Made by a program: the position numbers and the translations under genes. Positions 23,404 to 35,237 of a stretch of 35,237 bases of DNA are shown one piece after another. Position 1 is the stretch's first letter. Every line of letters begins with the position of its first letter. The notes under the pieces were generated by a model. That model did no database searches, was not told where the DNA came from, and saw nothing but the letters and a program-made list of their open reading frames with translations. The stretch comes from a filamentous cyanobacterium CCP5 (GTDB taxonomy: Bacteria > Cyanobacteriota > Cyanobacteriia > Phormidesmidales > Phormidesmidaceae): positions 1 to 35,237 of the forward strand of contig PYEQ01000003.1 in NCBI GenBank assembly GCA_003017785.1, in the 5' to 3' direction.

Positions 23404-25047
23404 ATGAGTCTTAAACAACAGTTCTTGCTGGGAAATTTAGGTGCTGCTCTGTTGGGCATAGGGTTGGTCGGTTGCGGTGCTGGCCCAACGGAGTCGGCAG
23501 ATGTCTCAGAACCCGCTGAGTCGGTGACTCGGACAGGTTCAGCAGAGCAAATTGTGCTGGCGATCGCGGGCGAAAGTGAAGAGGGCTACGACCCGACCCT
23601 GGGCTGGGGTCGCTACGGGTCGCCCCTATTCCAGAGCACGCTGCTGAAGCGGGATGCTGACCTCAACATCGTCAACGATCTGGCGACGGACTACACCGTG
23701 AGTGCAGACGGGCTGACCTGGACGGTGACGATTCGCGACGATGCGGTCTTCTCCGATGGCGAACCCCTGACCGCTGAGGATGTAGCCTATACCTTCAACC
23801 AGGCAGCCGAAAGTGGTGGTTTGACAGACGTAACTGTTTTGGAAGAAGCGGTGGCCGTAGACGACACCACCGTTGAGTTGCGCCTCCAGGAACCCCAAAG
23901 CACTTTCGTGAATCGCCTGATTACCCTGGGCATTGTGCCCGAACATGCCTACGGGTCGGACTACGCCCGCAACCCGATCGGCTCTGGTCCTTACCAGATG
24001 GTCCAATGGGATGAAGGGCAGCAGCTCATCGTCGAGGCCAACCCCGACTACTACGGCGAAGCGCCCGGCATTGATCGCCTCGTCTTTCTGTTTGTAGAAG
24101 AAGATGCCGCCTTCGCTGCCGCCAAAGCGGGACAGGCCCAGGTGGCGAGCGTCCCCCAGGCGCTAGCGGTGCAGACCATCGAGGGGATGACCCTCTATGA
24201 CGTCACCAGCGTCGATAATCGGGGGCTGATGTTTCCCTACATTCCGGCATCGGCAGGGGAAACGACGCCCGATGGCGACCCGATTGGCAATGATGTCACA
24301 GCCGATCCGGCGATTCGGCAGGCGGTGAACTACGCGATCGATCGCCAAGCCCTGGTGGATGGCGTTTTGGAAGGCTACGGCTCCGTCGCCTATGGCCCTG
24401 TCAGCGGGCTGGCCTGGGAAGAACCCAGCGCGGCGATCGAAGATGCCCAGCCGGAAAAAGCCCAGGAAATCCTAACGGCGGGTGGCTGGGTCGATAGCGA
24501 CAGCGATGGGGTGTTGGAAAAAGACGGTCTGAAGGCCGAATTCACCGTTCTCTACCCCGCCAGCGACAGCACCCGACAGGCCCTAGCCCTGGCGACGGCG
24601 GAGATGTTGAAACCCATTGGCATTCAGGCCAACGTCGAAGGCAAAAGCTGGGATCAGATTGAGCCCGCCATGCACAGCAACGTGGTGGTATTTGGCTGGG
24701 GCAGCCACGACCAGACCGAGATCTACAACCTCTATCACAGCCAGTCGGCCCAGGGAGATTTCAATAACGCCGGGTACTACGCTAACCAGGCCATCGACGA
24801 AACCCTGGATCTGGCCATGGGTGCCCCCTCGGAGGCTGAAGCGATCGCCTTCTGGAAAGCCGCCCAGTGGGATGGCAACCAGGGCTTTACCGCCAAAGGG
24901 GATGCGGCCTGGGCCTGGCTGGTGAATTTAGACCACACCTACTTCGTCAGCGACTGCCTGGATATCGGTCAACCTCAAGTGGAACCCCATGGCCATGGCT
25001 GGCCGATCACTGCCAACATCGCTGAGTGGGAGTGGACATGCAATTAA
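23404..25047 (+). CDS. nikA: ABC transporter substrate-binding lipoprotein (NikA/DppA family)
   Basis: About 547 residues from the ATG at 23404 (GAGG seven bases upstream), starting MSLKQQFLLGNLGAALLGIG and a lipobox LVGC, so it is a lipoprotein of the periplasm. The mature part is a family-5 extracellular solute-binding protein (DGLTWTVTIRDDAVFSDGEP; LTAEDVAYTFNQAAESGG; RNPIGSGPYQMVQWDEGQQL; FTVLYPASDSTRQALALATA). This family binds peptides, or nickel chelates in NikA. The setting among a nickel-type sensor and cobalt exporter suggests nickel or a metallophore, but the ligand cannot be read. It overlaps the first permease gene by ten bases. Confidence 0.85.
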   Translation: MSLKQQFLLGNLGAALLGIGLVGCGAGPTESADVSEPAESVTRTGSAEQIVLAIAGESEEGYDPTLGWGRYGSPLFQSTLLKRDADLNIVNDLATDYTVSADGLTWTVTIRDDAVFSDGEPLTAEDVAYTFNQAAESGGLTDVTVLEEAVAVDDTTVELRLQEPQSTFVNRLITLGIVPEHAYGSDYARNPIGSGPYQMVQWDEGQQLIVEANPDYYGEAPGIDRLVFLFVEEDAAFAAAKAGQAQVASVPQALAVQTIEGMTLYDVTSVDNRGLMFPYIPASAGETTPDGDPIGNDVTADPAIRQAVNYAIDRQALVDGVLEGYGSVAYGPVSGLAWEEPSAAIEDAQPEKAQEILTAGGWVDSDSDGVLEKDGLKAEFTVLYPASDSTRQALALATAEMLKPIGIQANVEGKSWDQIEPAMHSNVVVFGWGSHDQTEIYNLYHSQSAQGDFNNAGYYANQAIDETLDLAMGAPSEAEAIAFWKAAQWDGNQGFTAKGDAAWAWLVNLDHTYFVSDCLDIGQPQVEPHGHGWPITANIAEWEWTCN

Positions 25048-26027
25048 GGCCAATCGCAACCTTTGCGGCTCAGAAGCTGCTGCGGCTGGGTCTCTTGCTG
25101 CTGGCGGTGGCGATCTTCACCTTCGTGCTGCTGAGTCTGTCCCCCATCGACCCGGTGCAGGCCTACATCGGCGCCGACATGCTCCAGATCAGCCCCGAGC
25201 AGCGGCAGTTGATTGCTGAACGCTGGGGGCTCGATCAGCCGATGATTGTCCGGTTTTGGGACTGGCTGGGGCAGCTCCTGCAGGGCAACTGGGGCACCTC
25301 GATGGTGTTTAACCAGCCCGTGGGCGAGGTGATTGCCAATCGGTTTTGGGTGTCGCTGCAAATGCTGGCGATCGCCTGGCTCCTCTCCGGCATCCTCGGT
25401 CTGGGACTGGGCATTCTGTCCGGGGCACTGGCCGGTTCCTGGGTTGACCGGGTGATTCGCCTCTACGCCTACACCCTGGCCTCGTCACCTACCTTTTGGG
25501 TAGCCCTGCTGCTGCTGATTGTCTTCTCGGTGTCCCTGAGGGTCACGCCCATTTGCTGCGCCGCACCGCCGGGCGTGTTGGCCGAAAACGTCACCTTCTG
25601 GCAGCATCTCCATCACCTATTGCTACCCGCGATCGCCCTCAGCATCATTGGCATTGCCAACATCGCCCTGCACACGCGCCAAAAGCTGATCGACGTGCTG
25701 CACAGCGACTACATCCTGTTTGCCCGCGCCCAGGGTGAACCCCTCTGGGGTGTGATTCGCCACCACGGCTTTCGCAACCTGATTCTGCCTGCCTTGACCC
25801 TGCAATTCGCCTCCTTGAGTGAGCTGTTTGGCGGGTCGGTGCTAGTCGAGCAGGTATTTGCCTATCCCGGTTTGGGCGAGGCCACGGTACAGGCCGCTCT
25901 CCGAAGCGACGTGCCGCTGCTGGTGGGCATCGTGTTCTTCAGCGCCCTCTTCGTCTACACCGGCAATACGCTGGCCGATCTGGCCTATCCCCTTGTTGAC
26001 CCCCGCATTCGGTTAGGAGGAAGTTAG
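25038..26027 (+). CDS. nikB: ABC transporter permease, NikB/DppB family
   Basis: About 329 residues from the ATG at 25038, which overlaps the preceding gene and follows GGGAGTGG. Typical of the first permease of nickel/peptide importers: N-terminal helix with LLSLSPIDPVQAYIG, six membrane helices, and the ATPase-coupling loop near YILFARAQGEPLWGVIRHHG, ending LAYPLVDPRIRLGGS. A Cys-Cys pair (TPICCAAPPG) lies in the loop after helix 3. It forms the channel with the next permease. Nickel versus peptide specificity is open. Confidence 0.85.
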   Translation: MQLRPIATFAAQKLLRLGLLLLAVAIFTFVLLSLSPIDPVQAYIGADMLQISPEQRQLIAERWGLDQPMIVRFWDWLGQLLQGNWGTSMVFNQPVGEVIANRFWVSLQMLAIAWLLSGILGLGLGILSGALAGSWVDRVIRLYAYTLASSPTFWVALLLLIVFSVSLRVTPICCAAPPGVLAENVTFWQHLHHLLLPAIALSIIGIANIALHTRQKLIDVLHSDYILFARAQGEPLWGVIRHHGFRNLILPALTLQFASLSELFGGSVLVEQVFAYPGLGEATVQAALRSDVPLLVGIVFFSALFVYTGNTLADLAYPLVDPRIRLGGS

Positions 26028-26151
26028 TTTTTAGTTTTGAGTTCTTAGTTTTGAGTTTTTAGTTCTTAGTTCTCTATTCCAAGTCTCAATTCAAAACTCA
26101 ACATTCAAAACTCAAAACTCAACATTCAACCCTATTCATTCAAAACTATTC
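26028..26151. repeat. Heptamer/octamer repeat spacer, TTTTGAGTTCTTAG type, with inverted symmetry
   Basis: The left half repeats TTTAGTTTTGAGTTCTTAG; the right half repeats the complement-like AACTCAAAACTCAACATTC. The two halves can form a long imperfect hairpin between the two permease genes. The sequence is low complexity, unlike the neighbouring GC-rich genes, and does not encode protein. Confidence 0.85.
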
Positions 26152-27015
26152 ATGTCCCTCACCACCACCACTACTCCAGCTACCGTCCCAAGACGCCACA
26201 GCAATCGACGACAGCGCACCCTTTGGGGCATTACTCTCTGTACGCTTTTGCTGCTGGCGATTATCCTCAGCCCCTGGTTCATGGGCGATGCGGGTCTAAG
26301 TACCGTGCTCACCCAGCGCAACCAGCCCCCCTCTCTGGCTCACCCCTTCGGCACCGACTGGCTCGGGCGGGATATGCTGAGTCGTTCCCTCCACGGCATG
26401 TCCCTGAGCTTGCGCATTGGCCTCCTCGCCGCCGCTATCAGCGCCCTAATTGGCACTGGCCTGGGATTAGCAGCGGGTACCCTCGGCGGCTGGATCGACG
26501 CCGTCATCACCTGGATTATCGATGTGTTTTTCAGCCTGCCCCATCTGGTGCTGCTGATCTTGATCGCCTTTGCCATGGGCGGCGGCACTACCGGCGTGAT
26601 CGTCGCCGTGGCCCTCACCCACTGGACCAGCCTGGCCCGAGTCATCCGCGCCGAAGTACTACAGGTCAACAGCTCCGACTACGTCCACCTGTCCCGCCGC
26701 TTCGGCCGATCGCCCCTCTGGATTGCCCGCCACCACATGGTCCCCCACATCATTCCCCAACTGCTAGTGGGGCTGATTCTGCTGTTCCCCCACGCCATTC
26801 TGCACGAAGCGGCACTGTCCTTTATCGGGATTGGGCTGTCGCCGCATATCCCGGCGATCGGGATCATCCTGGCAGAATCCATGCGCCACCTCTCGACGGG
26901 CTATTGGTGGCTTGGCGTTATGCCGGGGCTGCTGCTGCTGCTCTCGGTCAAGGCTTTCGACTGGTTGGGGGAAAACGTACGGGCGTTGCTCGATCCGAAG
27001 ACGAGTCAGGGGTAA
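26152..27015 (+). CDS. nikC: ABC transporter permease, NikC/DppC family
   Basis: A 287-residue second permease. The N-terminus has a soluble lead, a helix (LCTLLLLAIILSPWFMG) and the family motif HPFGTDWLGRDMLSRSLHG. Then come five helices and the coupling loop SSDYVHLSRRFGRSPLWIAR. The segment EAALSFIGIGLSPHIPAIG is diagnostic for NikC/DppC/OppC proteins. Start at 26152 follows the repeat-filled spacer; no clear ribosome binding site is visible. It pairs with the upstream permease. Confidence 0.87.
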   Translation: MSLTTTTTPATVPRRHSNRRQRTLWGITLCTLLLLAIILSPWFMGDAGLSTVLTQRNQPPSLAHPFGTDWLGRDMLSRSLHGMSLSLRIGLLAAAISALIGTGLGLAAGTLGGWIDAVITWIIDVFFSLPHLVLLILIAFAMGGGTTGVIVAVALTHWTSLARVIRAEVLQVNSSDYVHLSRRFGRSPLWIARHHMVPHIIPQLLVGLILLFPHAILHEAALSFIGIGLSPHIPAIGIILAESMRHLSTGYWWLGVMPGLLLLLSVKAFDWLGENVRALLDPKTSQG

Positions 27016-27017
27016 GA

Positions 27018-27172
27018 GGGTGCAAGGTTTAAGGTGCAAGGTATACGGTGCAAAGTGCAAGAGCGGTGCAAGGTGCGCCGTAGACCGTAGACCGTAGACC
27101 GTCAACCCTAGACCCTAAACCCTAAACCTTAAACCCTGCACCCATCCACCCATCCACCCATCTACCCGCCCC
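27018..27172. repeat. Short tandem repeat spacer (GTGCAAG, CGTAGAC, CCTAAAC and CATCCAC units)
   Basis: Consecutive blocks: GGTGCAAGGTTTAAGGTGCA type, then exact heptamers CGTAGAC (three and more), then CCTAGAC/CCTAAAC/CTTAAAC, then CATCCACC octamers. The first block and the CCTTAAACCCTGCACC part are complementary, so the spacer can fold. It resembles the short tandemly repeated repetitive sequences described in filamentous cyanobacteria. Confidence 0.88.
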
Positions 27173-27174
27173 CC

Positions 27175-28104
27175 ATGCTCTCAGTCTCCAATCTCGGCAT
27201 CACCTTTACCCAGTACGACCAGGGATTGCACCGCAAGCAGCTCACGGTCATCACCGACCTGGATTTGACCGTTCAGGCGGGAGAACTGGTAGCGGTGGTG
27301 GGCGCGAGTGGTTCGGGGAAGAGTCTTTTGGCCCATGCCCTGTTGGGGATATTGCCGGAGAACGCTCAGCTATCCGGGAAGATGGAATTTCAGGGAGCAC
27401 CGTTGACTCCAGAGCGGTGCGAGGCTTTGCGGGGTAAGGCGATCGCCCTCATTCCTCAGTCCGTCGGCTATCTGGATCCGTTGATGGCCGTGGGGCGGCA
27501 GGTGCAGCGGGTGGGACAGCTCAATGGCCTACCCGCGCGATCGGCCAGAACCCTGATGGAGCGCACCTTTGCCCGCTATGATTTGCCTGCCTATACGCCG
27601 AAGCGCTACCCGTTTCAGCTCTCGGGGGGGATGGCACGGCGAGTGCTGGTTTCGACCGCAGTCATGACGCAGGCCCAGCTCGTCATTGCCGATGAGCCGA
27701 CACCGGGACTGCACCCGGATGTCGTCACCGAAACCTTGAACCATCTGCGAGAACTGGCTCAGGAGGGACGGGGCGTGATTCTGATTACCCACGACATTGA
27801 AGCGGCATTGCAGGTGGCCGATCGCGTGGCAGTGTTCTATGCCGGCACCACCGTCGAAATCGCTGACGCCCAGGATTTCACCACAGGCAATCTGCGGCAT
27901 CCCTACACCCAAGCGCTCTGGCGATCGCTGCCTCAAAATGACTTCGTGCCGGTGCCGGGCAACCAGCCAAGCCCGGAAAGTTTGCCGTCAGGGTGTTTGT
28001 TTAGCGATCGCTGTCCCTGGGTGACAGCAGATTGCGAAGTTGCGCGTCCTGAAGCCAGGTTTGTCCGTCAAGGTTGGGTGAGGTGTATTCATGCTGAAGG
28101 GTGA
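27175..28104 (+). CDS. nikD: ABC transporter ATPase, NikD/DppD family
   Basis: A 309-residue ATPase. Walker A is GASGSGKS, the Q loop lies in IALIPQSVGYLDPLMAVGR, the ABC signature is QLSGGMARRVLVS, Walker B is LVIADEPTPGLHP and the switch histidine is in ILITHDIEAAL. The C-terminal oligopeptide/nickel-type extension has four cysteines (SGCLFSDRCPWVTADC, then WVRCIH), typical of this subfamily where it may bind an iron-sulfur cluster or metal. It overlaps the next ATPase gene by 14 bases. Confidence 0.88.
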   Translation: MLSVSNLGITFTQYDQGLHRKQLTVITDLDLTVQAGELVAVVGASGSGKSLLAHALLGILPENAQLSGKMEFQGAPLTPERCEALRGKAIALIPQSVGYLDPLMAVGRQVQRVGQLNGLPARSARTLMERTFARYDLPAYTPKRYPFQLSGGMARRVLVSTAVMTQAQLVIADEPTPGLHPDVVTETLNHLRELAQEGRGVILITHDIEAALQVADRVAVFYAGTTVEIADAQDFTTGNLRHPYTQALWRSLPQNDFVPVPGNQPSPESLPSGCLFSDRCPWVTADCEVARPEARFVRQGWVRCIHAEG

Positions 28105-28744
28105 AAATCTCTGGTTTCGCTATGGGGCTAAACTGCCGTGGGTGGTGCAAGACCAATCATTCCCGATATTACCGGGGGAAATTGTAGGCCTGATAGCTCC
28201 CTCCGGCTATGGCAAAACCACCCTTGGCAAACTGCTGGCAGGCTATCTATTGCCGACCCAAGGCCACGTCACGCTGGACGAACAACCCCTGCCCAGCCGA
28301 GGCTATTGCCCCGTACAGCTGGTCTTTCAAAATCCGGAGCTGTCGGTCAACCCCCGCTGGCGCATCGATCGGATCTTGCGGGAAGGGCACCCGCCGCAAC
28401 TGCACTACCTGGATGCCCTCGGCATTCACCCCGGCTGGATGACCCGCTACCCCCATGAGCTGAGTGGGGGAGAACTGCAAAGGGTGGCGATCGCCCGCGT
28501 TCTCAACCGCAACACCCGCTACTTGATCGCCGACGAAATGACCGCCATGCTGGATGCGAATACCCAAGCGCTCATCTGGCAGGTAATTTTAGAGTTTGTC
28601 CGTCAATATCAGGTTGGGGTGATTGCAATTAGTCATGATCAGCCTCTGCTAAAGCGAATCTGTCAGGGACATTCCATCAAGCGCTTGACCGATAGTGCCC
28701 AACTAACGGTAAACCCTGGGTTATCTCTTCCAAGACCTTTTTGA
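28091..28744 (+). CDS. nikE: ABC transporter ATPase, NikE/DppF family (short)
   Basis: A 217-residue ATPase with Walker A APSGYGKTT, Q loop VQLVFQNPELSVNPRW, signature ELSGGELQRVAIAR, Walker B YLIADEMTAMLD and switch histidine AISHDQP. It lacks the C-terminal cysteine extension, as NikE-type partners often do. Together with the preceding ATPase it would form the nucleotide-binding heterodimer. A hairpin follows four bases after the stop. Confidence 0.88.
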   Translation: MLKGENLWFRYGAKLPWVVQDQSFPILPGEIVGLIAPSGYGKTTLGKLLAGYLLPTQGHVTLDEQPLPSRGYCPVQLVFQNPELSVNPRWRIDRILREGHPPQLHYLDALGIHPGWMTRYPHELSGGELQRVAIARVLNRNTRYLIADEMTAMLDANTQALIWQVILEFVRQYQVGVIAISHDQPLLKRICQGHSIKRLTDSAQLTVNPGLSLPRPF

Positions 28745-29488: not shown

Positions 29489-29986
29489 TTAGACTGAACT
29501 CAAAATGCGTTCGCCGTTAGCTTTCCATCCCTGAATACTCGGTGGAAAACCTTGAATGTTACTGTATCCCAGCATTTGTAAAGCCATTACGCCCATGGCT
29601 GTACGATAGCCAGAGGAACAATAAAGAATGACAGGACGGTCTTTGGAGACTTTTTCCAGATTTTGCGTGAGCGATCGCAACGGAATATTGATGGCACCTG
29701 GAATATGGCCGCTCTTAAATTCTGCAGGCTCGCGCACATCAATCAACACAGCCTCTTTATCCTGGAGAAGTTTTTTTAACTCGCCAATTCGCTTCACGGT
29801 GTAGTAATTATCGGGGAGTGATTGAAGAAATTCATCTACCCCTAAAAAAGATGAGCGATTGTCAATGCTCTCTAAGGAGCTCCCGGTGGTTAGGGGATTG
29901 GCCATTGCCGCAGCATGCGGTATGCTTCCCCACCATAAACCGATGGATAGCCAGCCAATGATTAAGGTCAGCGTAATTTTCTTCAT
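29489..29986 (-). CDS. Exported rhodanese-domain protein
   Basis: About 165 residues from the ATG at 29986 (MKKITLTLIIGWLSIGLWWG, then SIPHAAAMA), a clear signal peptide; an ATG seven codons upstream would weaken it. The mature part is a single rhodanese domain: VLIDVREPAEFKSGHIPGAI, and the active-site loop YCSSGYRT with catalytic cysteine about residue 123. Rhodaneses transfer sulfane sulfur from thiosulfate or persulfide. Export to the periplasm suggests handling of external sulfur compounds. It follows the ACR3-like permease by 34 bases and is the last gene of the minus-strand island. Confidence 0.9.
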   Translation of the reverse strand: MKKITLTLIIGWLSIGLWWGSIPHAAAMANPLTTGSSLESIDNRSSFLGVDEFLQSLPDNYYTVKRIGELKKLLQDKEAVLIDVREPAEFKSGHIPGAINIPLRSLTQNLEKVSKDRPVILYCSSGYRTAMGVMALQMLGYSNIQGFPPSIQGWKANGERILSSV

Positions 29987-30020
29987 AGCTGAAATTAGGG
30001 TAATCAAACGTGGATTATGG

Positions 30021-31019
30021 CTAAGCCGACTGTTCTAGCTGGGGCGGGCTTTCAGGAATAGGGCCAAAGATGCGATCAGTAAATCGCACATACCAGGCCG
30101 CTGCCTGCACCTGAATGATATAAGCCATGGCGATAATCAAGGCGATTTCCGATCCCTGTTCTTTGCCAAAGGCGGTCATGGCGATCGCTAAGGCAATGGA
30201 CAGGTTGCGCATGACAGTGCCATACACCAGGGCGATCGCATCCCCGCGATTAAAGAACACCTTGCCCACAATCGTGCTGAGCAGAAAATTGCCGAGGTAC
30301 AAAATACCCAGAGGAATCAAAAATGACAGCAGTTCTAAGGGGTTGGCCACAATATCCTTGGCCTTGAGTGCCATGGCTACAAAGACAATGCCCAACACAC
30401 CAATGGTGGAAAAGGCGGGAAACTTTTGCTTCAGGTTTTTGTTGTACTTATCGGCCCCCACGAGCTGAATCAGTGAGATGCGGGTAACAAACCCGAGGAT
30501 CATTGGCAGAAAGACAATAATCACAATCTGCTTAAAAATGCTGGAAAGGGGAATTTCAACCACCGTTCCCATTAGCCATTTGGCATAAAACGGGGTGGCC
30601 ACGGAACCCAAAATCAGCCCAATCACGGTCATCTTGACGGCGGCGCTGAGGTTGCCTTTGGCAAAGCCCGTCCAGGAAATGGTCATGCCGCTGGTAGGCA
30701 GCAGGGAAGCCAGCAGCAGGCCCAGGGCCACCAGGGGGCGATCGCCGAAAAACACCTTGCCCATGGCAAAGGCAAAAAACGGCACCACGGCAAAGTTGAT
30801 CGCCTGAGTGACCACCTGCACCTGGGTATCGCCCCCCGACAGGACTTTTTGGATTTGCAGATTAATCATCATGGGATACACCATGAGGAATGTCAGGGGA
30901 ATGATCAGCGATTTTAGGGGAGCTGGATTCGCGATCGCTCCCACAATAATCCCCGCCACCATAAAGGCGGGAATGGACCAAACTAGATTTTTTTGAATAA
31001 AGCCCAAGACTTTCCACAT
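30021..31019 (-). CDS. ACR3/BASS-superfamily permease lacking the arsenite cysteine
   Basis: A 332-residue protein with about ten membrane helices resembling arsenic-resistance ACR3 transporters (PAPLKSLIIPLTFLMVYPMM; TVMRNLSIALAIAMTAFGKE). In ACR3 exporters the fourth helix carries an essential cysteine (P-C-T-A-M-V); here the corresponding segment is LLPTSGMTISWTGF, without cysteine, and no arsC or arsR gene is seen nearby. The neighbours are rhodaneses, DUF302/DUF2892 proteins and sulfide:quinone reductase. A sulfur oxyanion or related anion as substrate is therefore an inference worth considering; arsenite remains possible. Confidence 0.8.
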   Translation of the reverse strand: MWKVLGFIQKNLVWSIPAFMVAGIIVGAIANPAPLKSLIIPLTFLMVYPMMINLQIQKVLSGGDTQVQVVTQAINFAVVPFFAFAMGKVFFGDRPLVALGLLLASLLPTSGMTISWTGFAKGNLSAAVKMTVIGLILGSVATPFYAKWLMGTVVEIPLSSIFKQIVIIVFLPMILGFVTRISLIQLVGADKYNKNLKQKFPAFSTIGVLGIVFVAMALKAKDIVANPLELLSFLIPLGILYLGNFLLSTIVGKVFFNRGDAIALVYGTVMRNLSIALAIAMTAFGKEQGSEIALIIAMAYIIQVQAAAWYVRFTDRIFGPIPESPPQLEQSA

Positions 31020-31063
31020 GGGACGGCTCTCCTTAATCGTTGTGATGATGAATGATGGTTTGC

Positions 31064-31306
31064 TTAATCTGAAACCTCAGCGGTTTTCGCGGTGCCCTTT
31101 TGAGTGGGGAGTCCGGCTTTTTGCCAGGCCATCATGCCCCCGGTAATGTTGAATACTTGGCTAAAACCGGCTTTCACGAGTGTCTGCGCCGCGATCGGGC
31201 TGCGGTGAGAGGTCAGACAAATCAGGGCAATGGGAGTCTCTTTGGGGAGTTGTGCAAACCACTGTGGTAAGACCCAGGAGCGCAGGATGGGTACTCGGCT
31301 TCTTTT
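31064..31306 (-). pseudogene. C-terminal half of a rhodanese gene
   Basis: The minus strand encodes WVLPQWFAQLPKETPIALI, the active-site region CLTSHRSPIAAQTL and VFNITGGMMAWQKAGLPTQ, then a tail and TAA at 31066-31064. This is the second half of a rhodanese domain. No start codon or N-terminal half (IDVRE.xEF.xGH) is found in this frame; upstream DNA codes for a NifX-like protein in a different frame. A deletion fusing two genes out of frame explains it best; a frameshift error is possible. Confidence 0.7.
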
Positions 31307-31542
31307 CTGGCAAGGCGGCCAACCAATTCACGGCCCATGCCCCCGGCAATCAAGACTTGAACCTCATCCAGGGGATGGGTCGCGTAGGGCGAACTGTTGT
31401 GGAATGATTGCTCTTTGGGTAACTCTAAAAATGATTTGCCTAAAACGGCCGTTTGGTCGATGTCGTAAATCCAAAAATTTTGACATCGACCAGCATGAGG
31501 GGTGATGGTCTGTTTATCTTGACTGGCGATCGCGATTTTCAT
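31222..31542 (-). CDS. NifX/NafY-like (dinitrogenase Fe-Mo cofactor domain) protein, truncated
   Basis: The frame encodes MKIAIASQDKQTITPHAGRC through HPLDEVQVLIAGGMGRELVG, the recognisable fold of the Nitro_FeMo-Co family, small proteins that bind or carry metal clusters. After about residue 85 the sequence changes to a frame overlapping the rhodanese remnant (PSCAPGSYHSGLHNSPKRL), so the last 20 or so family residues are lost. The product of 106 residues may be non-functional. No nif genes are nearby; related proteins occur in sulfide and sulfur clusters. Confidence 0.65.
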   Translation of the reverse strand: MKIAIASQDKQTITPHAGRCQNFWIYDIDQTAVLGKSFLELPKEQSFHNSSPYATHPLDEVQVLIAGGMGRELVGRLARKEAEYPSCAPGSYHSGLHNSPKRLPLP

Positions 31543-31644
31543 AGCTGGGTTTTCTCTCTTAAGAATGTTGAGCTTCGTTCTGAATGGGTGTTGCTAAATT
31601 CATCTGATAGCAACGATAAATTCGGGTGGTTATGCAGGCGGGCT

Positions 31645-32121
31645 CTATGGGTTTCCTTGCACCACCAATACTGAGCAAGCGACATGGTGCAAGACATAAT
31701 TACTCACGCTGCCCAGGAACATCTCGGAGATCCCTCCCAGGCCTCGACGCCCTAACACAATCAAGTCGGCTTCCCATTCCTGGGCCAAGTCGCGAATCAA
31801 GGGACCTGGGTGACCCACGGCACACCGAGACTGAACCGGGATGTGCTGTTCGGTTGCTTGAGCGACATAACGTTTTAACCAGTGCCGGGTCTCGCTAAGC
31901 TTTTCCTCTAACTGGCTTTGCTGAATGTTGGCAAAGGCCCCCGACAGGTCGGTCTCCATTTCAATCGCGTCAAAGGCACCGAGCCCCAGATGAAAGTCCC
32001 AGTCCAGGGCAGTGAACAGCATCAACTGGCTATCGTTGTCCAAGGCCGTTTTGATTGCCTTGGCAAAGACATCGTCAGCCTGCTGAGAACGATCTAGAGG
32101 GACTAAGATTTTGGTGAACAT
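31645..32121 (-). CDS. Universal stress protein, UspA family
   Basis: About 158 residues from the ATG at 32121, which follows GGAAGAAT at a proper distance; an upstream in-frame start has no such site. MFTKILVPLDRSQQADDVFA opens the fold, and the nucleotide-binding signature is LGRRGLGGISEMFLGSVSNY followed by HHVACSVLVVQG. It belongs to the ATP-binding Usp type. It is distinct from the copy at 15876, sharing only the family motif. Location between petC and the NifX-like gene suggests co-expression with the sulfur genes. Confidence 0.92.
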   Translation of the reverse strand: MFTKILVPLDRSQQADDVFAKAIKTALDNDSQLMLFTALDWDFHLGLGAFDAIEMETDLSGAFANIQQSQLEEKLSETRHWLKRYVAQATEQHIPVQSRCAVGHPGPLIRDLAQEWEADLIVLGRRGLGGISEMFLGSVSNYVLHHVACSVLVVQGNP

Positions 32122-32168
32122 GGTAATTCTTCCGGTTTTCTGGGCCAAGTCAGGTGTTTGTTAAGTCC

Positions 32169-32702
32169 CTAGACCCACCAGGGCTGTTCTCCTGTCCGGG
32201 GGTCAGTTTCATTCCAGGGATAAATCCAGATGGCGTCATCTTTCACCGCCACATGCACAATCTTGAGCGGCAGAGGAGCTGGCCCTCGAACAACCTTGCC
32301 ATCGGGATCGTAGAGCGATCCATGACAAGGGCATTGAAACTGTTGAGCATTCGCATTCCAGGGAAAAGTGCAGCCCAGGTGAGTGCAGTTATCGACAATT
32401 CCCATCGGCGATAAGGAACCATCATTCTGGATGGTCAGATAGGTCGGTTCACTCGCTAAGCCCGCAATCAGGGCGCGAGTGCCAATGGGTTCAGCCAGAA
32501 TTTGACTCGCCGGAATGGGATTACCCAGTTTGTCTTTAGCGAGAATCCCGCCCCCTTCAGTCACCTCCCGAGGCGGCACAAAAAAATTGGCAATGGGGTA
32601 CAGCGCCGATCCAGCCGTGGCTGCCACCGTTGCCCCGGTCAGAAAGTTGAGCAATTGCCGTCGTGACAATGACGGGTTTTCATAAGGAATGGCATTTTCC
32701 AT
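32169..32702 (-). CDS. petC: Rieske iron-sulfur protein of cytochrome b6f type (PetC paralogue)
   Basis: A 177-residue protein. After a short N-terminus with twin arginine (LSRRQLLNFLTGATVAATAG) and one membrane helix comes the PetC region (GGILAKDKLGNPIPASQIL) and the Rieske cluster ligands in CTHLGCTFPWN and CPCHGSLYD, followed by GKVVRGPAPLPLKIVHV. It transfers electrons from plastoquinol to cytochrome f. The gene stands alone, away from petA, which in cyanobacteria normally accompanies the main petC, so this is probably an alternative PetC. Neighbouring sulfide genes suggest a form used under sulfide; that is inference. Confidence 0.92.
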   Translation of the reverse strand: MENAIPYENPSLSRRQLLNFLTGATVAATAGSALYPIANFFVPPREVTEGGGILAKDKLGNPIPASQILAEPIGTRALIAGLASEPTYLTIQNDGSLSPMGIVDNCTHLGCTFPWNANAQQFQCPCHGSLYDPDGKVVRGPAPLPLKIVHVAVKDDAIWIYPWNETDPRTGEQPWWV

Positions 32703-32705
32703 CAT

Positions 32706-33007
32706 TCAAATTCACTCCAGTTATTTTTATGACAGTGCAGAAAGAAATGGTTCGGTAGTTCTCTCAAAAACCCAGTTTTTTAGGACTCACCCAGATTGCA
32801 GCGGCGGGTTGATCCGGTAGACCCTGAAGATTGATTCAGGGTCTAAAACCAAGAAGCTACCGGGGGGTAGTCACTCTTAATCCTGGGAGCAACGACTGCA
32901 GAGGAAAGCTGCTAGGAATCCAGGTCATGAGTCAGAGGAAGCGATCGCTCACCCGGCCTGAAAATCTCCATCGCACATTTACCCCCCGTGGATAAAATCG
33001 TCGGACC
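32706..33007. other. Spacer between the DUF2892 and petC genes
   Basis: No gene is visible. It holds the hairpin at 32819-32844. A promoter for petC on the minus strand should lie between 32705 and 32815. Two short C/A-rich stretches are seen but no convincing boxes. Confidence 0.45.
32819..32844. terminator. Hairpin between the DUF2892 and petC genes
   Basis: AGACCCTGA and TCAGGGTCT form a perfect nine-base stem with an eight-base loop. It could end transcripts of the DUF2892 gene on the minus strand, but no T tract follows in that direction. Confidence 0.55.
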
Positions 33008-33223
33008 TTATGACAGGGATTGGTTGGACTTGCGAGTGTTGATGCCGAGCAACCCGTACAGGGCACAGGAACCAATCAGTCCCGTGAGCAGAGCGACACC
33101 CCCGACTACAGCTAGCCCGATGCCGAGGGCTGACCCCGCATAGGTAAACAGCCCCAGATACAGCAGAACAGCGGCGGCGATTAGGCGCAGCAAGCGATCA
33201 GTAGTACCGACATTGTTAAACAT
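33008..33223 (-). CDS. DUF2892 family small membrane protein
   Basis: Seventy-one residues from the ATG at 33223 (MFNNVGTTDRLLRLIAAAVL); an ATG eight codons upstream adds unconserved residues. The N-terminal segment MFNNVGTTDRLLR is typical of DUF2892, with two membrane helices and the motif GSCALYGLLGINT. Such domains occur alone or fused to rhodaneses (as in YgaP) and are common in sulfide-oxidation loci, possibly anchoring or moving sulfur species. Its own function is unknown. Confidence 0.85.
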   Translation of the reverse strand: MFNNVGTTDRLLRLIAAAVLLYLGLFTYAGSALGIGLAVVGGVALLTGLIGSCALYGLLGINTRKSNQSLS

Positions 33224-33355
33224 GGGATTTATCTCCAAAAAAATCAATCAAAATTGAATCCGTCAAAATGGAATCAGGTGAATGTGTGGATGTCTGGATG
33301 TTGTGAGCACCGGCTAACCGTTCAGGAACTCAACATTCAAGGACTTGGGCGAAAC

Positions 33356-33778
33356 TTAGGCCACCCCAGCCATCTCAAGTGCAGCGGCGGCAGGTAAGCG
33401 ATCGATCACAGCCTGCATCTTTGCGCTAGCTTCCAGGGCGATCGCCTTGGCCTCGGGGGTATGTACCATCAAAAACATCATCAGCGGATCAACTGCTGAG
33501 ACTTCGACGCGACCATCTTCATGCTCTTGGACCACCACATTGCAGGGGTAAAGCGCCCCGGCTTTGTCATCTGCCTGAATCATGCTGTAGGCGATGCCAG
33601 GGTGGCAAGCCCCGAGAATTTTGTAATTCCGAAAGTCTTTGCCGAGCTTTTTCTTAAAGGCGGCTTGCACATCAATTTCGGTCAGGATCCCCAGTCCTTC
33701 TTCTCGAAGGGACTCCGTCACCTGCTCTATGGCCTCTTCAAAGGAGGAATTTACAACTTTACTAAAGTGATACATCAC
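33356..33778 (-). CDS. DUF302 domain protein
   Basis: A 140-residue soluble protein. MYHFSKVVNSSFEEAIEQVT, LREEGLGILTEIDVQAAFKK, YKILGACHPGIAYSMIQAD and GALYPCNVVVQEHEDGRV are the characteristic DUF302 segments. The family has a compact alpha-beta fold, an unknown activity, and is repeatedly found beside sulfur-oxidation and heavy-metal genes. Two conserved cysteines (in GACHPG and YPCNV) could act in redox or binding. It is divergent from sqr. Confidence 0.9.
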   Translation of the reverse strand: MMYHFSKVVNSSFEEAIEQVTESLREEGLGILTEIDVQAAFKKKLGKDFRNYKILGACHPGIAYSMIQADDKAGALYPCNVVVQEHEDGRVEVSAVDPLMMFLMVHTPEAKAIALEASAKMQAVIDRLPAAAALEMAGVA

Positions 33779-34191
33779 TCATGACTCCGTTTGTTTCATA
33801 GTTCGAGTCAGGGAAACTGCCTATCAATCAGGCGACAAAGATCGCCTTCAGACATAGACAGACCCTCGATTAACCAATCATCTGTTCATTGTATGACCAG
33901 ATAGTAATATAGTAACTCAATAGCTCTTTGCTTTTGGCTGACCGGCGAGAAAGCAATCTTCAGGAAAGGTGCATAGATTTTAGTCTATTTATGACATTAT
34001 ATAACTACTTAGTAGTATGGTTTAGTAAGAGGTGTCTGGTTGCCCTCAAAGGAAGCGGCTCATCACTTCCTCGAATTGTTGACTTATCGTCCGATGGGCC
34101 GGCGCTCAGGTGTTTAGAGAGTGGAATGTCCCCAGGGGATGAAGCAACACCTATAAAAAGTCCGAATAACAATAGAGGATGCAAGCACGCT
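33779..34191. promoter_or_regulatory. Divergent control region between the DUF302 gene and sqr
   Basis: An AT-rich stretch of 413 bases without a gene. Two palindromes lie in the centre: ATAGATTTTAGTCTAT at 33973-33988 (five-base arms) and ACTACTTAGTAGT at 34004-34016 (five-base arms), spaced about 30 bases. Such AT-rich inverted repeats resemble ArsR-family operators; no regulator gene lies within the window. The sqr mRNA leader would be long if transcription starts near the palindromes. AGAGGA at 34173-34178 is a weak ribosome binding candidate for sqr. Confidence 0.55.
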
Positions 34192-35237
34192 ATGGCTAAT
34201 GTTGTAGTTATTGGGGCCGGATTGGGGGGCTTGCCCGCCGCCTATGAACTCCGGCATCTGCTGCCGTCAGAACATACGGTCACCTTAGTATCGGAGCAAT
34301 CGGAATTCACCTTTATTCCAGGGTTGATTCAGGTCGCCTTCAATTTGAAGCCATTAGCACAGGTTCAACTGGGCTTGGCTCAACTGGCTCACCGTCATCA
34401 TCTCAATTGGGTACCGGGTAAGGTCACGGCCCTTGACCCCGCCCACCAGCGCCTAACGGTTGAGGGGCAGGAGACGATCGCCTATGACTACTTACTCATC
34501 GCGACCGGCGCATCCCTTGCCTGGGACTGGATACCTGGCACTGGCCCCCATGGAGGCTACACCCACTCTGTCTGCACCCCCGACCACGCTCTCGAAGCCC
34601 GTCAAGCTTGGCTCGCGTTTCTTGAAAACCCTGGGCCGATCGTCGTCGGTGCGGCTCCGGGAGCCGGGTGTTTTGGCCCCGCCTATGAATTTGCCCTGAT
34701 TGCCGATCAAGAATTGCGCCGCCGGGGGTTACGACACCAAGCGCCGATCACCTACGTCACTCCAGAACCCTATGCCGGACATTTGGGGGTTTCCGGCGTT
34801 AAAAACGCCCGTGAACTGACCGCAGAGCTGATGCAAAAACGCGGGATTGAGGTGATTGACAATGCCACTATTGCGGCGGTGGAGCCTCAAGCGGTGACCC
34901 TGGCCGATGGCCGCCAGTTGCCCTTTGATTACGCCATGATTTTGCCAGCCTTTCAGGGGGCGCAGTTTATTCGAGCGGTGCCTGGACTCGGTGATGAAAA
35001 GGGCTTCATCCCCATTTTGCCGACCCAGCGTCACCCTCAGTTTGCCAACATCTATGCCGCCGGAGTGAGTGTCAAATTGGCCCAACCCGATGTCACCTCG
35101 GTACCGATTGGGCTACCCAAAAGTGGGCAAATGGCTGAAGCGATGGCGACCGCTGCGGCCCACAATATTGCGGTTGACCTCAAAGCCATCAACGCCAACC
35201 CTCAAGTACCAACCTTAGAGGCCCTCTGTTTTGCTGA
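34192..35237 (+). CDS. sqr: Sulfide:quinone oxidoreductase (3' end outside window)
   Basis: At least 348 residues of an FAD disulfide-reductase-like enzyme. N-terminal dinucleotide motif VVVIGAGLGGLPAAYELR, then YDYLLIATGASLAWDWIPGT and KSGQMAEAMATAAAHN. Three cysteines stand at C128 (HSVCTPD), C160 (GAGCFGPAYEF) and C346 (EALCFA), matching the positions of the three conserved cysteines of bacterial sulfide:quinone reductases, where two bind the sulfide-derived sulfur. The enzyme oxidises sulfide and passes electrons to plastoquinone, giving sulfide tolerance or anoxygenic electron supply. The last part is missing, so the membrane-attachment C-terminus is not visible. Confidence 0.85.
   Translation, partial: MANVVVIGAGLGGLPAAYELRHLLPSEHTVTLVSEQSEFTFIPGLIQVAFNLKPLAQVQLGLAQLAHRHHLNWVPGKVTALDPAHQRLTVEGQETIAYDYLLIATGASLAWDWIPGTGPHGGYTHSVCTPDHALEARQAWLAFLENPGPIVVGAAPGAGCFGPAYEFALIADQELRRRGLRHQAPITYVTPEPYAGHLGVSGVKNARELTAELMQKRGIEVIDNATIAAVEPQAVTLADGRQLPFDYAMILPAFQGAQFIRAVPGLGDEKGFIPILPTQRHPQFANIYAAGVSVKLAQPDVTSVPIGLPKSGQMAEAMATAAAHNIAVDLKAINANPQVPTLEALCFA

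Follow-up and report, generated by a model that had tools for sequence, protein, structure and literature searches.

Metagenome-assembled genomes (MAGs) of three Thermostichales species carry the gene of sulfide:quinone reductase (SQR), sqr, flanked by petC2, which encodes a Rieske protein, as was remarked by their authors (Mol Biol Evol 2024, PMC11304991); these sqr genes were inferred to have been acquired horizontally. The same two genes were found at the end of a 35,237-nt stretch of DNA from the filamentous cyanobacterium CCP5 (contig PYEQ01000003.1, positions 1 to 35,237), which was analyzed as a whole and is called the window. The window represents contig C681 of an assembly of 906 contigs (95% complete, 5.7% contamination) and its end is the contig end. 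There, sqr diverges from a leftward run composed of DUF302, DUF2892, petC2, a universal stress protein gene (usp), a NifX-like gene, a rhodanese piece, a permease gene of the SBF superfamily and a rhodanese gene. Like the window, these MAGs have a type I sqr adjoining petC2, and a part in electron transport at low oxygen has been proposed there, too; unlike for the window, neither a DUF302/DUF2892/SBF set nor a clade-wide test or a shared element is reported in the accessible part of the paper (PMC11304991). Judged from gene content and comparison with other genomes, this gene cluster is probably one locus of a cyanobacterial sulfide/persulfide regulon, which would be controlled by an ArsR protein and swap in a Rieske isoform.

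Further relatives have been described. The Acaryochloris genes AM1_0449-AM1_0451 form, together with psbA1, a DUF2892-petC-rhodanese-psbA1 cluster, in which low oxygen raised petC from 16 to 276 counts (PMC5295598). This cluster and Synechocystis slr1181-slr1185 combine DUF2892, a petC isoform and a rhodanese as the window does, but the Acaryochloris cluster includes psbA1, whereas no psbA was found in the island of the window, and sulfide is nowhere mentioned in that paper (PMC5295598). As to sqr operons, psbA was described in the vicinity of sqr for several genomes, sqr is known to be accompanied by arsR, and the Synechocystis plasmid operon includes DUF302 (PMC5061849). In the operons of Geitlerinema sp. 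PCC 9228 and of the Synechocystis plasmid, sqr is under arsR-type control, similar to the control proposed here, whereas petC or Rieske proteins are unmentioned in PMC5061849 and the presumed leftward operon of the window contains petC2. In PCC 7002, polysulfide raises psbA and petC transcripts (PMC12466478); this petC was not placed in either of the clades distinguished below. The initial annotation of the window knew of no description of the gene set as a unit. Two portions of it have been published, namely sqr-petC2 (PMC11304991) and DUF2892-petC-rhodanese-psbA1 (PMC5295598), whereas the literature searched, which does not cover most subscription papers, revealed neither the clade-wide link of PetC2 to sqr nor the shared element. 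A literature search with the letters of the motif gave no relevant paper, and the priority of the element is not certain.

A Rieske clade linked to sqr

The gene sqr (34192-35235, forward strand) has 348 codons present and its 3' end, which would encode the C-terminal membrane-binding part, is cut off by the contig end. The closest solved relatives of its product are the enzymes of A. ferrooxidans (275 bits, E 9e-81) and Aquifex (246 bits, E 6e-72), both of which we take to be type I, whereas other SQR types match with at most 91 bits. The three catalytic cysteines are present, since VCTPDH, GAGCFGP and LCFA align with the cysteines of the A. ferrooxidans enzyme. Thus, sqr encodes a type I sulfide:quinone reductase, and it is the only close SQR gene in the genome.

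The gene petC2 (32169-32705, reverse strand) encodes a Rieske protein with the domains PF25471 (TM_PetC) and PF00355 (Rieske), which scores above the cut-off of NF045928. According to profiles and alignment, the transmembrane anchor and the cluster boxes CTHLGC and CPCHGS are present. In the same genome, the canonical petC1 followed by petA is located on contig C863 (L116). Hence, the gene of the window is an extra petC, as had been annotated, and the possibility of it being the only petC of the genome was discarded. A third Rieske-type protein (L115:1824-2390, contig C736) is distant, has a very long branch and shows no PetC-like anchor by eye.

The window PetC was compared with 390 genomes of the cyanobacterial class and groups were drawn from the matches listed. 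Among these, 73 genes in 69 genomes have 63-91% identity to the window protein and at least 259 bits, while general PetC1 proteins, separated by a clear gap, have about 50-55% identity and at most 213 bits. A tree split the clade of the window from the petCA-linked PetC1 with a support of 99/97, confirming the separate phylogenetic position expected for this copy. In the alignment, 15 diagnostic positions separate both groups; for example, Thr-Phe directly follows the first cluster box in the clade of the window (CTHLGC-TF), but Val-Val in PetC1 (CTHLGC-VV). The clade was named PetC2 by synteny with the published Acaryochloris cluster and not by comparison with Synechocystis slr1185: the Acaryochloris-type locus L055, with a petC of the homology group that also includes the window PetC, repeats the DUF2892-petC-rhodanese-psbA order (PMC5295598). 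PetC2 retains the ligands of the cluster as well as the Ser/Tyr of CPCHGSxY, which makes a high redox potential, compatible with the cytochrome b6f complex (b6f), likely.

Type I sqr is present in 100 of the 390 genomes, comprising 51 of the 69 genomes with PetC2 and 49 of the 321 without. The resulting counts (both 51, PetC2 only 18, sqr only 49, neither 272) gave P = 3e-21 in Fisher's test, a value inflated by the kinship of the genomes. When genera were counted (both 31, PetC2 only 8, sqr only 27, neither 91), P was 4e-10. In the window, sqr and petC2 are about 1.5 kb apart; 34 of the 73 PetC2 copies lie within 7 kb of sqr, but none of the 10 listed PetC1 genes in sqr genomes lies within 20 kb of it. 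The linked genes are mostly divergent as in the window, but are on the same strand in Pseudanabaena-like genomes. In view of the genus-level test and the varied orientations, kinship is probably not the whole explanation of the link. The proposed pairing of this PetC clade with sqr therefore holds in other genomes, both in co-occurrence and in location.

Around petC2, the same genes recur in dozens of cyanobacteria; among culturable relatives, Nodosilinea sp. LEGE 07088 and Leptolyngbya sp. PCC 7375 share the locus. The 68 loci with a petC2 open reading frame (ORF), among them that of the window, most often contain the families rhodanese (50), SQR (37), DUF2892 (34) and NifX-like (21), followed by psbA, Tll0287-like and DUF3122 (20 each), ArsR (18), SBF (17), metallo-beta-lactamase (MBL)/ETHE1-like (14), DUF302 (12) and Hdr-like (12). 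Thus, the grouping of the island genes is far beyond chance. In favor of sqr and petC2 being neighbors by chance or history, without a working link, the cluster does show turnover, visible in the decay of the nifX and rhodanese genes and in the restriction of usp to few relatives. However, the sqr-petC2 linkage recurs in differing orientations and orders, the two genes co-occur in 31 genera and the element described below is common to unlinked sulfur operons, which renders such an origin highly improbable.

In many PetC2 loci the neighboring D1 is a 'rogue' form, which has lost ligands of the Mn cluster (D170E, E189Q/K/A/R, E333A/S, D342L/P/T where covered). Such psbA genes near petC2, often with sqr too, were noticed in L010, L013, L029, L030, L035, L039, L040, L043, L055, L072 and L075. 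No rogue D1 was found in this genome, the four D1 copies of which, two being partial, have normal Mn ligands where covered. HdrC-HdrB-HdrA-like operons occur near PetC2 in Oscillatoria/Phormidium-type genomes (L034, L037, L048, L074 and others; L155, L157), including the sulfide-tolerant Phormidium pseudopriestleyi, and many of them have the palindrome.

A palindromic element at sulfur promoters

The sqr/DUF302 intergenic regions of close relatives were aligned; a search for short palindromes in this region was uninformative alone. An operator-like 20-bp near-palindrome, ATATAACTACTTAGTAGTAT at 33999-34018 of the window, is near-identical in L009, L012, L014 and L040, while its flanks diverge. 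From the alignment and a scan of the loci, the symmetric consensus ATATNACTANNTAGTNATAT was obtained, from which the window site differs by one mismatch. A second, weaker copy with two mismatches is located at 33891-33910, closer to DUF302.

Exact matches to the motif were found in 9 of the 390 genomes, this criterion being too strict. In 0.99 Mb of PetC2 loci, the element has 70 sites with at most two mismatches and 122 with at most three, where control patterns of similar composition gave 0-4 and 5-21 sites, respectively. The regions up to 300 bp upstream of genes were then scored with at most three mismatches, for which controls are near zero. The element precedes 9 of 11 DUF302, 11 of 15 MBL and 19 of 38 SQR genes, 12 of 17 genes of one ArsR subfamily, 10 of 20 HdrC, 16 of 34 DUF2892, 9 of 24 psbA and 3 of 8 heme oxygenase genes, but only 19 of 362 genes of other families; these counts are partly circular for the reason given below. 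A hold-out set, free of this circularity, comprised the sqr promoters of 20 genomes in which no PetC2 is linked to sqr. Here, 7 promoters matched with at most three and 14 with at most four mismatches (controls: 0-1 and 0-3, respectively), whereas among 20 promoters of canonical petC1 the numbers were 0 and 1.

Throughout this assembly, four sites with at most two mismatches exist, all at sulfur promoters. Two are those in the sqr/DUF302 intergenic region, the third lies between a divergent arsR and an operon for ETHE1-like MBL and rhodanese proteins (C362, L153) and the fourth upstream of a second operon of this type (C726, L154). In 42 genomes, 166 sites with at most two mismatches were counted versus 88 for the reversed control; part of these sites is therefore due to chance, as the excess is about twofold. 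Among the 20 genomes with sites listed, 30 of 75 sites have sqr or PetC2 at a distance of up to 12 kb, and those off the clusters include sites at promoters of MBL-rhodanese-TauE, Hdr-like, psbA and arsR genes. Taken over all loci, the element is common to the promoters of sqr, DUF302/DUF2892-petC2, ETHE1-like, Hdr-like, psbA and arsR genes. Outside the PetC2 clusters, further copies of the palindrome were noticed upstream of genes for DUF2214 membrane proteins and in the vicinity of a Tll0287-like gene (L158, L160, L164).

Towards sqr, there is a weak promoter match whose -10 hexamer coincides with the end of the site at 33999-34018, an arrangement that repression would need. Matches in promoter and terminator scans were no more frequent than in shuffled sequences and the sqr promoter match alone is no better than chance.

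ArsR proteins of the SqrR/BigR type sense persulfide and regulate sqr as well as persulfide genes. As regulator acting on the element, the best candidate is the product of the arsR next to the C362 site (L153:1914-2282). This product is an ArsR/SmtB protein of the same fold family as SqrR/BigR, and one of its cysteines aligns with their first sensing cysteine. It differs from them in the place of the second cysteine, and the regulon proposed for it would include b6f and D1 genes. The match to solved SqrR/BigR structures reached 34-36 bits only, and with 40 bits against the NCBIfam BigR profile (cut-off 155) the protein is not BigR by that cut-off. Genes of a second ArsR subfamily are found beside sqr in some genomes and have no upstream site (0 of 9), as expected if the gene sits inside the sqr operon; its product could bind the same element.

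Proposed regulon and alternatives

We propose that an ArsR-family repressor, encoded elsewhere beside a persulfide-dioxygenase-like operon, would sit on ATATNACTANNTAGTNATAT in the sqr/DUF302 intergenic region and keep both divergent operons off, the leftward genes presumably forming one transcript. The signal may be sulfide or persulfide, a rise of which would release the repressor. SQR would then hand electrons from sulfide to plastoquinone, sulfane sulfur would presumably be dealt with by the DUF302, DUF2892 and rhodanese proteins, and ETHE1-like and rhodanese proteins would clear persulfide. PetC2 would be made as an alternative Rieske subunit and enter b6f under these conditions, so that electrons would still pass to photosystem I. 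The rise of psbA and petC transcripts with polysulfide in PCC 7002 (PMC12466478) is in line with this proposal. In a wider form of this proposal, the ArsR-controlled regulon marked by the element would rebuild the photosynthetic chain for a switch from water-driven to sulfide-driven photosynthesis: SQR would be added, the Rieske protein swapped for PetC2, D1 swapped in many species (in some for the neighboring rogue D1 lacking Mn ligands), and persulfide dioxygenase, rhodanese and Hdr-like proteins supplied. For this wider form, we judge the chances to be about even. To the question of what cyanobacteria need a second Rieske isoform for, the sqr link and the common element would give a testable answer, namely that PetC2 is part of the sulfide response. 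Both might also serve as a marker for cyanobacteria able to switch towards anoxygenic photosynthesis, which would bear on the history of oxygen in the Proterozoic.

Several points weigh against a sulfide regulon. Low oxygen, and not sulfide, is the published inducer of the corresponding petC in Acaryochloris (PMC5295598). Type I SQR is missing from 18 of the 69 genomes with PetC2, and only about half of the sqr genes have the element upstream. The seed of the element was taken from the sqr/DUF302 region of close relatives, which makes the counts in those loci, other than the hold-out, partly circular. Finally, the second cysteine of the C362 ArsR is present in the last helix, but offset from the SqrR position.

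Some of these points would fit a general low-oxygen response, in which PetC2 is a micro-oxic Rieske isoform comparable to alternative D1, oxygen or the redox state is the signal, and sqr accompanies petC2 since sulfidic places are also low in oxygen. Heme oxygenase genes and putative hemN and acsF genes are also near PetC2 in some loci, and three of the eight heme oxygenase genes have the element upstream. The PetC2 genomes without type I SQR agree with this explanation, as does the behavior of the Acaryochloris petC and of Synechocystis slr1181-slr1185, which also went up at low oxygen (PMC5295598). However, it is the promoters of ETHE1-like, arsR, DUF302 and sqr genes that have the element most often and, in this genome, it was found only at sulfur promoters. 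Oxygen as the primary signal is accordingly rated as rather unlikely, and a sulfide/persulfide regulon is preferred.

Remaining genes of the island

All genes named in the initial annotation are present and lie together, with sqr divergent from the rest, but three of the assignments had to be narrowed. The leftward run, entirely on the reverse strand, is led by the DUF302 gene (33356-33778; PF03625, E 3e-25), followed by the gene for a DUF2892/YgaP-like transmembrane protein (33008-33247; PF11127, E 4e-19), which adjoins PetC2 in many loci. Beyond petC2, usp (31645-32148; PF00582) was found in few related loci only.

The permease gene (30021-31019; PF01758, E 3e-27) had been called ACR3-like. 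This applies at superfamily level (SBF), the protein being distantly ACR3-like; with 85.4 bits it falls short of the TIGR00832 (acr3) cut-off of 282.8 and is not assigned to ACR3. An arsenic-response island with ArsR control, an ACR3-like exporter, DUF302 and, in relatives, ArsA, in which SQR is co-regulated as in Synechocystis, could be derived from the superfamily membership of the permease, from ArsA-like and ArsR genes in some PetC2 loci and from the co-regulation of Synechocystis sqr with arsenic genes (cited in PMC5061849). Against this, the permease is about 200 bits under the ACR3 cut-off, the element precedes none of 17 SBF genes, a profile search of the window proteins revealed no arsR, arsC or arsB in the island itself and the element-bearing operons elsewhere in the genome are of persulfide type. 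An arsenic island was dropped as first choice owing to the permease score and the SBF genes without the element, and is considered improbable.

Directly before the island, at 25026-28744, two permeases and two ATPases of a peptide/nickel-type ABC transporter are encoded, which show no sign of a link to it. Of the two rhodaneses annotated, one is a rhodanese-domain protein (29489-30007; PF00581, E 7e-22) and likely has an N-terminal signal sequence. The second is represented only by a C-terminal remnant (about 31065-31271), recognized by three-frame translation, which retains the active loop CLTSHRS, has lost the N-terminal part and is 68-85% identical to intact rhodaneses of L012, L009 and L040. 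The NifX-like ORF (31222-31542; PF02579) exists as annotated, but the gene is truncated, keeping about 83 conserved codons followed by an out-of-frame tail. Relative to L040, the window lacks about 480 bp between the NifX-like gene and the second rhodanese (31065-31542), so that both genes are broken, unless the assembly is at fault. A decay of the nifX/rhodanese region resembling that of the window was also noticed in L011.

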